NCBI GenBank assembly: GCA_028866575.1
Contig: JAGWHU010000003.1
Location: forward strand, 1-64,000
Reading direction: 5' to 3'
Length of the DNA: 64,000 bases
Source of the DNA: Candidatus Micrarchaeota archaeon
Lineage (GTDB): Archaea > Micrarchaeota > Micrarchaeia > Micrarchaeales > Micrarchaeaceae
The position numbers were made by a program, and so were the translations under genes. This document shows, one piece after another, positions 4,018 to 51,987 of this stretch; the stretch's first letter is position 1; the number at the start of each line of letters is the position of its first letter. The notes beneath the pieces are model-generated. The model did no database searches. It saw only the letters and a program-made list of their open reading frames with translations, and had not been told where the DNA came from.

Positions 4018-4139
4018 TTTATCGTTTCTGTACATAACCGAACACCTGATGACAAAGTCCAAACCATTCGACGACAAGCTTCCCGGATCTCCAGACGCAG
4101 GCGCTGTCCGTTTTGCTCATAGTCCTACCTTAAGCATTA

Positions 4140-48694: not shown

Positions 48695-48802
48695 CTGAAT
48701 ACCTATTGTTACTAGTTATTCTCGCATAAAAGAATTATAAAGGATGCGCTTATAACGAGAAACAGATACATTTTTAATGTTTGAAAATTAATTAAAACAG
48801 AT

Positions 48803-48888
48803 GCAGGGATAGCAAAGCCCGGCCAAATGCGACGGGTTTAGGGCCCGCTCCCTTAGAGGGTTCGAGAGTTCAAATCTCTCTCCCTGCA
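48803..48888 (+). tRNA. tRNA-Leu (anticodon UAG)
   Basis: This 86-base class II tRNA has an acceptor stem GCAGGGA/TCCCTGC with discriminator A, a D-arm beginning AGCAAAGCC, an anticodon loop TTTAGGG with TAG at 48839-48841, a variable arm CTCCC/GAGGG and a T-arm GAGAG/CTCTC around TTCAAAT. The CCA end is not encoded. The base pair at the top of the anticodon stem is A-C, a mild oddity. A TATA-like CATTTTTAATG lies about 27 bp before it. Its 3' half is the attachment site of the adjacent integrated element and is duplicated at 51955-51987. Confidence 0.9.
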
Positions 48889-48890
48889 AA
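48858..48890 (+). repeat. attL: 33-bp direct repeat in the tRNA-Leu 3' half
   Basis: A 33-bp block, identical to 51955-51987, covers the T-arm and the 3' acceptor strand of the tRNA plus two bases. The copies are offset by 3097 bp. On the plus strand both are open in the phase that encodes GSRVQISLPA, linking the two integrase fragments. Confidence 0.9.
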
Positions 48891-49745
48891 TGAAAATTAC
48901 GACGACAAAACCGAGTTCAGAAATCCAAGGCAGAAATCTTTCAAGAGGAAAGATTTCGAGAAATTTTCGGAGAAAATGAGGCAGGTGTCCATGCTGGTGT
49001 CATGGCACCAACTCCAGCAGATGCAATCGGTCCTTCACAAAACGCAAACCAAGAGGTTTGCAGGAAAAAGAAGAACCCCAAAATACGGCTCATTGTCAAA
49101 GGCATTTACGGACAGTCAGATAACTCAATTCTTCAGGGTTATAGACAATGACAAGTTTCAACTTATCTTCCAATACCAAGCGCAGCTTGGGCTCAGGATA
49201 GGAGAAGCTGTCAGAGTAAATGTAAAAGACATCAACTTCCAGACAAGAGAGCTTACTCTAAGGACGGAAAAAGCAGGTAGAATAGACACATTGCTAATAC
49301 CTGCTCTGTTATTTAAGGATACTTTAGCCTTCGTAGCGAAGCATGAAGCAGAAATAGGTAAAGCTCTTGGATACATCTTTTTCAGAACCAGAAGCAACAG
49401 AACTGAGAATTTTGTGGAGCAAAATTATGTGCGAAACAGGTTCAGATACTATGTAGTAAAGGCTGGTTTGGATCAGACTTACGATTCATCAGAAGAGTCT
49501 GTTATAAACAGACGGCCTAGAAGCCTGCACAGGCTTACTACTCATAGCTTAGGCACTACGCAATTACCAGCTTCGCCAAGCAAACAAACGGCAATCTTGT
49601 ATTGACTATCAGATTTGCGAGGCACTCTAATCCCGATACTACTATGATTTACATAAGCACCAAGAAAGAGGAACTCTATAAAGAGATAGACAATACCTTC
49701 TCATTTGAGCGAGCAGAAAATCTAAAAAGAAGGATTAGTACTTGA
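48889..49745 (+). pseudogene. SSV-type tyrosine integrase, C-terminal part (intC), frameshifted
   Basis: The frame is open from inside the tRNA att sequence through the first ATG (48976) and encodes the core-binding and catalytic domains. The box I arginine lies in LGLRIGEAVRV. At 49549-49554 the text reads THSL and then leaves the family frame; a shift of -1 after the TTA codon gives RHYAITSFAKQTNG and RHSNPDTTMIYIST, the box II His/Arg and the tyrosine nucleophile, ending at 49745. The unshifted frame stops at 49605. Either one base was lost, the shift is programmed, or there is a sequencing error. The first 28 codons are at 51902-51985. The last 11 bases overlap the relE gene. Confidence 0.85.
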
Positions 49746-50067
49746 AACGGCGTTCATATTCTTTATGCGGCAGCCATTCGAGCAATATGGTAATTATGTC
49801 TACCTCGCTTCCAGCTATTGAGTACATCAATCGCCACGCTCCCGGAAGATTATATTTCCAGAGGTTGTTTATGCCGTATTTTTGAATGTAGATTTTGGGT
49901 ATCAATCGCTTAGGTATGTGAATACCACATAACGGGTTCTTTTTCAGGTCGTCTATTGCTCTATTCAGGAATTTGTACAGAGTTGGATCCTCCTTTTCTA
50001 GCTTCATAAATGCCTCTTTAAGCTTATCATCGGCAAATTGGACATAGACTGGTCTATTGTCTTTCAT
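49735..50067 (-). CDS. RelE/ParE-family toxin
   Basis: This 110-residue protein has the RelE-type fold pattern: two N-terminal helices (DDKLKEAFMKLEKEDPTLYKFL, then AIDDLKKNPLCG) and a four-strand sheet ending INNLWKYNLPGAWRLMYSI and VDIITILLEWLPHKEYERRF. This matches archaeal RelE mRNA interferases, which cut mRNA in the ribosomal A site. Its ATG overlaps the stop of the upstream wHTH gene (ATGA), so antitoxin is made first. It would stabilise the element in its host. Confidence 0.8.
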   Translation of the reverse strand: MKDNRPVYVQFADDKLKEAFMKLEKEDPTLYKFLNRAIDDLKKNPLCGIHIPKRLIPKIYIQKYGINNLWKYNLPGAWRLMYSIAGSEVDIITILLEWLPHKEYERRFKY

Positions 50068-50324
50068 CTAACCATCAGGTTCGAGTTCCTATACTTTGCG
50101 GCAAGCTCTGGATTCCATATCCATATGACCTTGCTCCCCTTTATTACTATCTTTCCTGAATTCTCGAGGTAGTCTAGTATGACTGTAAAAGTCTGGTACA
50201 TTGTCTTCCTCGGCAGAGCAAGCCAAAGGCTCCTCTTAGACCTGAATTCACCGTTCTTTTTCAACATTTCCTCTACCATAAGCACGGTGTCCAACCTAGG
50301 ATAGTGAATCAATTGCTTTTGCAT
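50064..50324 (-). CDS. Winged-helix antitoxin/regulator partner of RelE
   Basis: This 86-residue protein begins MQKQLIHYPRLDTVLMVEEMLKKNG and continues with EFRSKRSLWLALPRKTMYQTFTVILDYLENSGKIVI, a winged helix-turn-helix, then a short KVIWIWNPE wing and tail. It directly precedes relE with a four-base overlap, the usual antitoxin position. The frame extends 14 codons further, but the TATA box at about 50346-50355 puts the transcript start at the ATG 50324. It probably represses its own promoter through the palindrome at 50327-50348. Confidence 0.75.
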   Translation of the reverse strand: MQKQLIHYPRLDTVLMVEEMLKKNGEFRSKRSLWLALPRKTMYQTFTVILDYLENSGKIVIKGSKVIWIWNPELAAKYRNSNLMVR

Positions 50325-50326
50325 AG

Positions 50327-50348
50327 TAATATATAGAACTATATAATA
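50327..50348. promoter_or_regulatory. Palindromic operator of the wHTH-RelE pair
   Basis: Two 10-base arms (TAATATATAG and CTATATAATA, 9 of 10 complementary) flank an AA centre. The site lies between the minus-strand TATA box and the start codon at 50324, where a bound wHTH dimer would block initiation. Confidence 0.5.
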
Positions 50349-50366
50349 TATAAACTTATCTATCAT

Positions 50367-50720
50367 TTAGGGTTCAGGTAGAGTAAAACACCCTTTCAGG
50401 TAGAGTAAAATGACCTTTGTTTGCCCTATTTTTGGTCGTTTTCCCTCGTAAAACTCCCCATTAGTCGGAAAACACCATATTTTGCCTACTTTTTGAAAAG
50501 TTAGGTAGAGTAAGCCGTCGCCCGCCCCAAAAGTCGCCTTCCGGCGACGCTCGGCGGGCTAGGCCTCTCAATCTAAAGCCGTTTTGCCCCCTCCCAACAA
50601 AACGGCGTAAAGGTTCCTTGAACTGCTAGGTAGCTAGCTTAAAGCTCTTTGGAGCGTCAGGGAGCCACCTCGTGAGCTTGCTCAAGCAAGCGATAGAGAT
50701 GTGGCGACCCCAAGGATAGA
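50367..50720. other. Iteron and hairpin region, possible replication origin
   Basis: There is no gene in these 354 bp. TTCAGGTAGAGTAAAA occurs at 50373-50388 and 50395-50410 (22-bp spacing), and a third AGGTAGAGTAAG copy is at 50503-50514. Three GC-rich structures follow. The first is nested, GCCCGCC/GGCGGGC (50520-50559) enclosing GTCGCC/GGCGAC. The second is GCCGTTTTG/CAAAACGGC (50578-50606). The third is GCCAC/GTGGC enclosing GCTTGC/GCAAGC (50664-50705). Iterons next to cruciforms are common in small plasmid origins. Some of the structures could instead be an RNA. Confidence 0.45.
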
Positions 50721-50724
50721 TAGC

Positions 50725-50732
50725 TATAAAAG
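50725..50732 (+). promoter_or_regulatory. TATA box of the element membrane protein gene
   Basis: TATAAAAG has its centre about 26 bp before position 50754, next to a GTG at 50755, predicting a leaderless transcript. Confidence 0.45.
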
Positions 50733-50754
50733 AGTATCCAGATTTATACTTTAG

Positions 50755-51239
50755 GTGTCTAGCTGGAACCCAAAAGGCCATTAGGAATAACTATACTTAC
50801 CATTGTTTACGCAATTCTAGGAATAGCTACAATTATTGATGTTATATTAAAGGTAACATCCTCTTTGTTTTTGATAAATATAATATCTACTTTAGCTACA
50901 GTATTCAGCCCAGTAACAGTGTTAACGATTTTTCTATTAAAATATAGTACAATTGTTAATTTGTTTTTTGTTGTAGCTGGGTTGTTAGAATTAATTGCGT
51001 CTTATGGATTATATGCAAGGAAAAAATGGAGTAAATTGCTTGTAGTGATACTTGCAATCATGGTGTTGCTCTACGGTTTATTATTTGTGGGATCAAATAT
51101 CTCTTCATTGCAGCAGCAACTAAGTAGTTATGGATATAGAGCAATAGAAAGTATCGTGTATGCACTTATAATGAATATAATTCTACCGATTCTTGTAATT
51201 TATTACGTTGCTAGAAAAGAGGCCAAAAGTTTTGTTTAG
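50755..51239 (+). CDS. Four-helix membrane protein, apparently needing a -1 frameshift
   Basis: The long open part (TTG at 50865 to 51239) encodes three to four membrane helices. The same frame is open back to 50763 and there encodes KRPLGITILTIVYAILGIAT, a typical first helix of small archaeal membrane proteins, but without a start codon. A leaderless GTG at 50755, correctly placed after the TATA box, opens another frame: MSSWNPK. Slipping back one base on CCCAAAA joins them to give MSSWNPKRPLGI. The zero-frame codons are AAC CCA AAA, the X XXY YYZ arrangement of -1 slippery sites. A lost base is the simpler alternative. If neither holds, the TTG at 50865 starts a 124-residue protein. The function is unknown. 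Confidence 0.55.
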
Positions 51240-51247
51240 GTGAATTA

Positions 51248-51784
51248 ATGTCGTTTTGGCCTAAAACTGAATTTTCGGCTGACCTAAAAAATGAGCAAGT
51301 CAAATACGTGATTTCTAACGCTTTTTACTATTATTTCCATGCTCGGCAAGGAAATCCATTTATGCCTCCAGTTGCAACAGTAAGCTATATTGAATATATA
51401 CCTTACAACATAATATTTACGGAGAACTCTATCTTCGGAGAACATCTAACTCCAAGTATAAAGTTACATAGCATCCCCTTTGCGCCGCTTTTAGATTCAG
51501 AAAACACATTTAATGAGCTAAAGAGTAAGATAAATGATGGGAAGATAACTAAAGGACAAAAAGAAGGTATAAACGGTAAGGTAGATATCGAATTCAAGTA
51601 TAATAAAATAGAGAGGATTGGATTTAATAATTGGATTTCTGACAAGGACAAATTAACGGATTTCTCAGCTTCATTTGAAATTTTTGTTCCGATTTATAAT
51701 AACATATTTCTAATTAATAAAAATCTATCTGCAAATTTGGAAAACATAATAAAAGAGGTTGGGCTGGTTACCAAACTAAAATAA
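51248..51784 (+). CDS. Unknown cargo protein of the integrated element
   Basis: This 178-residue soluble protein is rich in Asn, Lys, Ile and Phe (AT-rich coding). Notable are an aromatic FYYYFHARQGNPFMPP segment, two beta-rich halves and no Cys. I do not recognise a family. It starts with ATG after a GGTGA site, eight bases after the membrane protein stop, so the two are coupled. It could be an accessory or defence protein of the element, but nothing in the sequence shows this. Confidence 0.5.
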   Translation: MSFWPKTEFSADLKNEQVKYVISNAFYYYFHARQGNPFMPPVATVSYIEYIPYNIIFTENSIFGEHLTPSIKLHSIPFAPLLDSENTFNELKSKINDGKITKGQKEGINGKVDIEFKYNKIERIGFNNWISDKDKLTDFSASFEIFVPIYNNIFLINKNLSANLENIIKEVGLVTKLK

Positions 51785-51901
51785 ACGTTCGAATTTCCTT
51801 GAATCCGAACACTCTTTGCTTAAATACCTTAATTGCTATAATTCATAGGTTCAGATACATGGCTTTTGCATTTAGGAAATTTTGCTAAAAGGTGCTTTAA
51901 A

Positions 51902-51987
51902 ATGGCTAGGAAAAATGACGACAAACCAGCTAAAATAGCGAATCGAACCCGTAGGGGTTCGAGAGTTCAAATCTCTCTCCCTGCAAA
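51902..51987 (+). pseudogene. SSV-type integrase, N-terminal part (intN)
   Basis: ATG at 51902 opens 28 codons (MARKNDDKPAKIANRTRR then GSRVQISLPA) that run in frame into the right att repeat. Past the repeat the frame continues into host sequence without family meaning, to 52165. The same phase continues from the left att into the catalytic part at 48889. An AGGTG site lies nine bases before the ATG. In the circular form this supplies the start of the integrase. Confidence 0.82.
51955..51987 (+). repeat. attR: 33-bp direct repeat
   Basis: Exact second copy of 48858-48890, made of the tRNA-Leu T-arm and 3' acceptor strand. It marks the right boundary of the integrated element; only the tRNA fragment is present here, not a whole tRNA. 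Confidence 0.9.

Follow-up and report, generated by a model that had tools for sequence, protein, structure and literature searches.

A small integrated element with a gene-splitting tyrosine integrase at a tRNA-Leu gene of Micrarchaeota, and its relatives

The tRNA-Leu locus and its insert

The DNA analyzed here is a stretch of 64,000 nucleotides from a Candidatus Micrarchaeota archaeon (GenBank assembly GCA_028866575.1, contig JAGWHU010000003.1, positions 1 to 64,000; hereafter the window), in which a 3.1-kb insert with a divided tyrosine integrase gene lies at a tRNA-Leu gene. The insert is bordered by two copies of an attachment (att) repeat, attL and attR; the catalytic part of the integrase, Int(C), follows the left copy, and the start of the gene, Int(N), precedes the right one. 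The features that define the insert are as follows.

48802-48889, plus strand: tRNA-Leu, anticodon TAG (ARAGORN; Rfam tRNA, 46 bits), the target gene, whose 3' half is attB/attL
48858-48890, plus strand: attL, perfect 33-bp repeat, within tRNA-Leu(UAG)
48859-49605, plus strand: Int(C), catalytic part of the tyrosine integrase (PF00589), in frame out of the tRNA, the frame breaking at about 49548/49549
49602-49745, plus strand: remainder of Int(C), read in a shifted frame, containing TIRFARHSNPDTTMIYISTKKEEL, aligning through in relatives
51780-51901, plus strand: conserved region upstream of Int(N) (blastn), probable integrase promoter or attP arm
51902-51987, plus strand: Int(N), first 28 integrase codons with an ATG start, running into attR
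51955-51987, plus strand: attR, perfect 33-bp repeat, its start 3097 bp from that of attL

An earlier note on this DNA had described perfect 33-bp repeats 3097 bp apart, one of them within the 3' half of a tRNA, together with a 28-codon open reading frame (ORF) running from ATG 51902 in frame into the right repeat and an integrase frame running out of the left one, in a host judged to be DPANN-like. All of this was borne out, the host being Candidatus Micrarchaeota. As ARAGORN places tRNA-Leu at 48802-48889, the left repeat is its 3' half, and the frame GSRVQISLPAN is read in both repeat copies, out of the left one into the integrase and into the right one from ATG 51902. The G+C content is 0.38 in the element and 0.51 in its flanks. 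Two trivial origins of the repeats were considered and ruled out: chance, by a perfect 33-bp match located in a tRNA and read in frame, and plain tRNA duplication, by the integrase, the G+C contrast and 33 further bounded elements described below.

The insert at tRNA-Leu is a real integrated element. Very probably it derives from a small circle that inserted there by means of a 'suicidal' tyrosine integrase.

Relatives, target sites and the divided gene

A search for the joined integrase in related genomes, as suggested in the earlier note, returned relatives in 38 of 60 genomes belonging to the host's family and order, and a scan of GTDB genomes yielded 183. For the 80 of these 183 that were listed, the titles name Micrarchaeota, Micrarchaeaceae or Marsarchaeota, except for one 'bacterium'. 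Searches of IMG/VR and of phage and plasmid records with the integrase gave no relative. The element belongs to a large and widespread, apparently undescribed, Micrarchaeota family of small elements that target tRNA genes; the open-access literature gave no description of comparable elements from Micrarchaeota or DPANN, subscription journals being outside the search. Most of the integrases lie directly behind a same-strand tRNA gene, of which Leu(UAG), Glu, Val, Ala, Pro, Gln, Lys, Arg and Asn are represented. Elements with both att copies present, referred to as bounded (n = 34), measure 1.8-8 kb, and att length in the relatives extends from 16 to 119 bp. The view of the window copy as an 'extremely reduced member' was dropped, as elements of 3.1 kb are usual in this family.

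The evidence for a gene divided upon integration comes from the bounded elements, of which 32 have no stop interrupting the integrase frame across the tRNA end. An Int(N) starting with ATG precedes the right att copy in the integrase frame in 27 of 34 elements, versus 3 and 4 for the remaining frames, and two of the three +1-frame cases correspond to the same MARN peptide with an indel in the linker. The Int(N) peptide itself is conserved, as MARNIGVKQLGNTLKPLA in tRNA-Leu elements and as M[KE]LE..DDK where the target is a Glu, Gln, Pro or Val tRNA. Since the same N-terminal start across different tRNA targets cannot derive from the tRNA, Int(N) must be coding, and the frame counts (27 versus 3 and 4) together with the conserved N-termini indicate that the split of the gene is real. 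Int(N) and its upstream region (51780-51977) also form the second conserved stretch of the window element, being found in about ten other elements at 67-82% identity (blastn).

A tRNA-Pro (CGG) subfamily (L123, L127 and L137) has integrases that fall in the same clade as the family. In L127 and L137, about 60 codons separate the att copy from the downstream start of the integrase gene, which is whole after integration, so that both architectures are found within one clade.

The adjacency of serS and tRNA-Leu is kept in many of these genomes, which allows occupied and empty versions of the site to be compared. An integrase element occupies it in the window genome and in seven others (G004, G008, G019, G020, G023, G038 and G059), while decayed or integrase-less versions are present in G032, G043 and G049; among the latter, G032 and G049 have att copies and Int(N) with little or no Int(C). 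The search for empty tRNA-Leu sites proposed in the earlier note gave about 15 genomes without an integrase behind the tRNA, including G001 of the same genus, others being occupied.

Two further arrangements were observed. In G032, the locus L042 (contig C1, 7054-8760) is 1.7 kb long and comprises both att copies, Int(N) and one ORF of 372 amino acids (aa) with no integrase catalytic part; it represents either a non-autonomous or a decayed version. In G048, the locus L227 (contig C14, 186-8150) has att copies stacked behind tRNA-Leu at 1802, 4078 and 8111, those at 4078 and 8111 each being preceded by a conserved Int(N). This stack corresponds to successive insertions at one site.

Cargo genes and the conserved non-coding module

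The interior of the element contains the following features.

49735-50067, minus strand: RelE/YoeB-fold toxin-like gene (weak sequence match), tail to tail with the integrase
50064-50366, minus strand: winged-helix partner, probable antitoxin, overlapping the toxin gene by ATGA
50358-50756, plus strand: conserved non-coding module (blastn, nhmmer), with a structured core at 50503-50718
50578-50606, plus strand: palindrome within the module, with GCCGTTTTG and CAAAACGGC as arms and a C-rich spacer between them
50865-51239, plus strand: hydrophobic 124-aa cargo ORF
51248-51784, plus strand: 178-aa cargo ORF

The integrase is the sole gene common to nearly all elements. Across the family, the cargo includes DNA methylases, HicA toxins, proteins with DUF2283 or DUF4258, nucleases of the HNH and GIY-YIG types and a Schlafen-type helicase. 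As the earlier note had already stated for the window element, no Rep or capsid gene is evident; neither these nor transfer genes were recognized in it or in its relatives, and the virion and DnaA-like replication genes of a Fuselloviridae provirus had no match among the ORFs of the element. With an integrase and att repeats and no virus or conjugation genes, the element has the make-up of an archaeal cryptic integrated element. The 178-aa ORF was considered as a conserved Rep and rejected: a search of 164 genomes of the order gave only one further match, which is weak and lies inside its own genome.

The AlphaFold model of the toxin-like protein (pLDDT 77) was matched by Foldseek to RelJK, YoeB, archaeal RelE and PfiAT, and the gene occurs in 69 of the 164 genomes, repeatedly tail to tail with the integrase. 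Toxin and partner are kept together in 18 of 19 homologous loci. The model of the partner is winged-helix-like, and its best PDB matches are winged-helix proteins, none with E <0.001; the partner is predicted to be a probable antitoxin.

Elements with unrelated cargo have in common a module of about 350 bp, located between the cargo and the toxin-antitoxin genes. It contains the repeats CAGGTAGAGTAAAA at 50375 and 50397, with a variant near 50502. The fold of its core has z-scores of -4.4 (plus strand) and -4.6 (minus strand), and compensatory change was observed at ten pairs (seven sequences); further covariation counts use an alignment fitted to a covariance model. This covariance model, of 61 positions, matches many elements, for the most part on the strand of the integrase. 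Of 19 genome matches of the module, 17 lie at most 6 kb from an integrase match on the same contig. The module had no Rfam match with E up to 1 and was absent from the phage and plasmid records searched. Its other carriers, L063, L080, L090, L097, L099, L104, L106 and others, differ in cargo and in tRNA target.

The palindrome within the module consists of two arms, each about 9-12 bp long, separated by a conserved spacer of about 8 bp; the spacer is C-rich in 29 cases and G-rich in 10, in a scan that required C- or G-runs. In L063 (9665), L067 (9848), L084 (9158) and L122 (9050), the spacer is either C-rich or the reverse complement of this form, with nearly identical arms and outer flanks. 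The loop has been inverted locally between these elements. Few G-U pairs occur in the module (4 of 436 cells over the 34 best matches), although the tRNA control of the same test was poorly registered. The rarity of G-U pairs and the occurrence of the loop in both orientations hint that the module may act as DNA rather than RNA. Because no Rep gene was recognized, the module is the best candidate for a replication origin; this remains a guess, which we prefer over its main rival, an RNA.

Affiliation, state of the window copy and proposed cycle

In a 2021 review, suicidal integrases were tied to PF16795, with the splitting of the gene considered a single event, and SSV-type elements integrate in tRNA genes with att sites usually of 40-50 bp (PMC8371274). 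The Micrarchaeota elements share with SSV1, pTN3 and pT26-2 an attP inside the integrase gene, the Int(N)/Int(C) split upon integration, a tRNA target, a translated att and the switching among many tRNAs (PMC8371274); the 33-bp att of the window is below the usual range. They differ in that their hosts are Micrarchaeota, they are much smaller and have no recognized Rep or virus genes, and their att lies near the extreme N-terminus, at codons 19-29 in the window integrase versus about codons 64-78 of 335 in SSV1. The integrase lineage also differs, being PF00589 and XerA-like. All nine integrases tested matched PF00589, whereas PF16795 was found neither in these nine nor in 41 genomes, in a search whose control was positive in Sulfolobus and others. 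The best curated model for the window integrase is recomb_XerA_Arch at 53 bits, far under the XerA cut-off of 220 bits, and its nearest solved structures are XerA. In the phylogenetic tree, it belongs to a clade separate from the SSV-type clade (99/99 and 100/98); given the long and unresolved deep branches, an independent origin of splitting is a possible reading only. The window genome also contains further XerA-like recombinases of another clade (G000:C4 at 27030 and 52883; G000:C5 at 52715 and 60522).

These data bear on the possibility that the insert is a true SSV-type element of the fusellovirus/pTN3/pT26-2 lineage stripped of its virus genes. It would account for the same split-gene logic, the tRNA target and a C-terminal catalytic part located behind the tRNA, as in pTN3 (PMC8371274). 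However, in addition to the absence of PF16795 and the separate clades, comparison by hhalign with SSV and pT26-2 integrases gave a probability of 0.5%, that is, no similarity, and tblastn with the SSV1 integrase only reached Sulfolobales viruses, an Archaeoglobus provirus and Sulfolobales/Thermococcales plasmids, while the Micrarchaeota integrase is without matches in phages or plasmids. SSV membership by descent is rejected, and this reading appears improbable. The earlier note's assignment to the SSV-type thus held for the mechanism, given 34 elements and both empty and occupied sites, and failed for descent. As judged from sequence, the integrase would work like an SSV-type enzyme without being shown to belong to the SSV-type family. 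Another possibility is that it is an ordinary type II integrase starting downstream of att, the open tRNA frame being incidental and Int(N) non-coding. An internal Met at 48976 in the window integrase and the downstream starts of the tRNA-Pro subfamily (L127, L137) are in its favor, but the frame bias of Int(N) and the N-terminal peptides conserved across tRNA targets make this reading very unlikely.

The window copy itself carries a defect. The frame breaks inside the catalytic HSLRHY motif, where the TTHSL codons are followed by LRHYAITSFAKQTNGNL...YIST in another frame, the window DNA being one base short compared with that of its relatives, of which 76 of 80 have the motif uninterrupted. 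The missing base is either a true inactivating mutation or an assembly error. Barring the latter, this one-base deletion in an active-site motif implies that no active integrase could be made from the window copy even when joined. The earlier claim that circularization rebuilds one gene of 313 codons does not stand in that form: both halves share a frame through att, but the joined ORF as written stops at 266 aa, with the last 64 aa or so in the other frame, and 313 aa are reached only across the shift. The earlier note had overlooked this shift, as well as the toxin-antitoxin pair and the non-coding module.

This deletion is among several observations that count against the suicidal-integrase reading of the insert. 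No circular attP junction and no empty site were found in the window's own assembly, nor any attP in the viral contigs searched, and among the relatives compared no very close genome had an exactly matching right flank free of the element. The antitoxin role of the toxin's partner is proposed from operon structure and fold, and the module is a putative origin that may instead act as an RNA. In line with the deletion and with decayed relatives such as those of G032 and G049, the window copy may be a dead remnant, fixed and immobile with a pseudogenized integrase. We give this even chances, and as a present state it is compatible with a suicidal-integrase element having inserted there. Against it, the att repeats are still perfect, the toxin and partner ORFs are intact, and related integrases can excise suicidal elements in trans (PMC8371274). 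It is also possible, though doubtful, that the element is a satellite, dependent on a helper virus or plasmid for its replication or movement. In favor of this, Rep, capsid and transfer genes were not recognized, and the conserved non-coding module could be what a helper recognizes; no helper is known, however, and searches of phage and plasmid records with the module and of IMG/VR with the integrase found no match.

Among described systems, the cryptic integrated elements of Thaumarchaeota are the nearest kind: they are integrated in tRNA genes, have the integrase as sole common gene, carry restriction-modification cargo and, for many of them, have no replication gene (PMC6563490). The smallest, of 2.6 kb, consists of an integrase, a winged-helix protein and two hypothetical proteins, and one element has an SSV1-like split integrase (PMC6563490). 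In contrast, thaumarchaeal integrases belong to several arCOGs and the median element size is 17 kb, while the Micrarchaeota elements have one coherent family of split-gene integrases across an order and a common non-coding module. The SSV-type Sulfolobales plasmids pSSVi (5.7 kb) and pXZ1 (7.0 kb) are likewise small circles with a gene-splitting tyrosine integrase; they differ in integrase lineage, and plasmid genes of pSSVi, such as that for an ORF56-type copy-control protein, were not seen in the Micrarchaeota elements. XerA and pNOB8-type recombinases share the PF00589 catalytic domain, but their genes stay intact after integration.

For the suicidal-integrase element, a cycle of seven steps can be proposed, the first three based on sequence comparison and the other four being what we infer. 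The circle would carry a whole integrase gene in which codons 19-29 copy the 3' half of tRNA-Leu(UAG) and constitute attP. The integrase would recombine attP with the tRNA gene, which is restored by the incoming copy. Integration thereby divides the integrase gene: Int(C) continues in frame from the tRNA, while the opposite end of the element holds Int(N) together with the start codon and the probable promoter. The resident copy would then be unable to remake its integrase, so that excision would depend on a related integrase acting in trans or on leaky expression of Int(C). Unless it is an assembly error, the active-site deletion would make the window copy helper-dependent. The RelE-fold toxin and its winged-helix partner would make loss of the element costly, and the non-coding module, the only widely conserved part beyond the integrase/attP region, would be the best candidate for the origin of the circle.

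A broader proposal, offered tentatively and as the less probable outcome, is that these are Micrarchaeota-specific Rep-less integrative elements in which splitting arose independently of SSV, pTN3 and pT26-2, and that host or helper enzymes replicate the circle from the stem-loop module, which would serve as an origin or as an RNA primer. A PF00589 split integrase across a DPANN order suggests a second origin of gene splitting, or one older than thought. The common module provides a concrete lead to the replication of Rep-less archaeal elements, and dozens of occupied and empty sites make target switching and excision in trans testable. For archaea with tiny genomes, the family would constitute a mobile, tRNA-anchored cargo system for restriction-modification and toxin-antitoxin genes.

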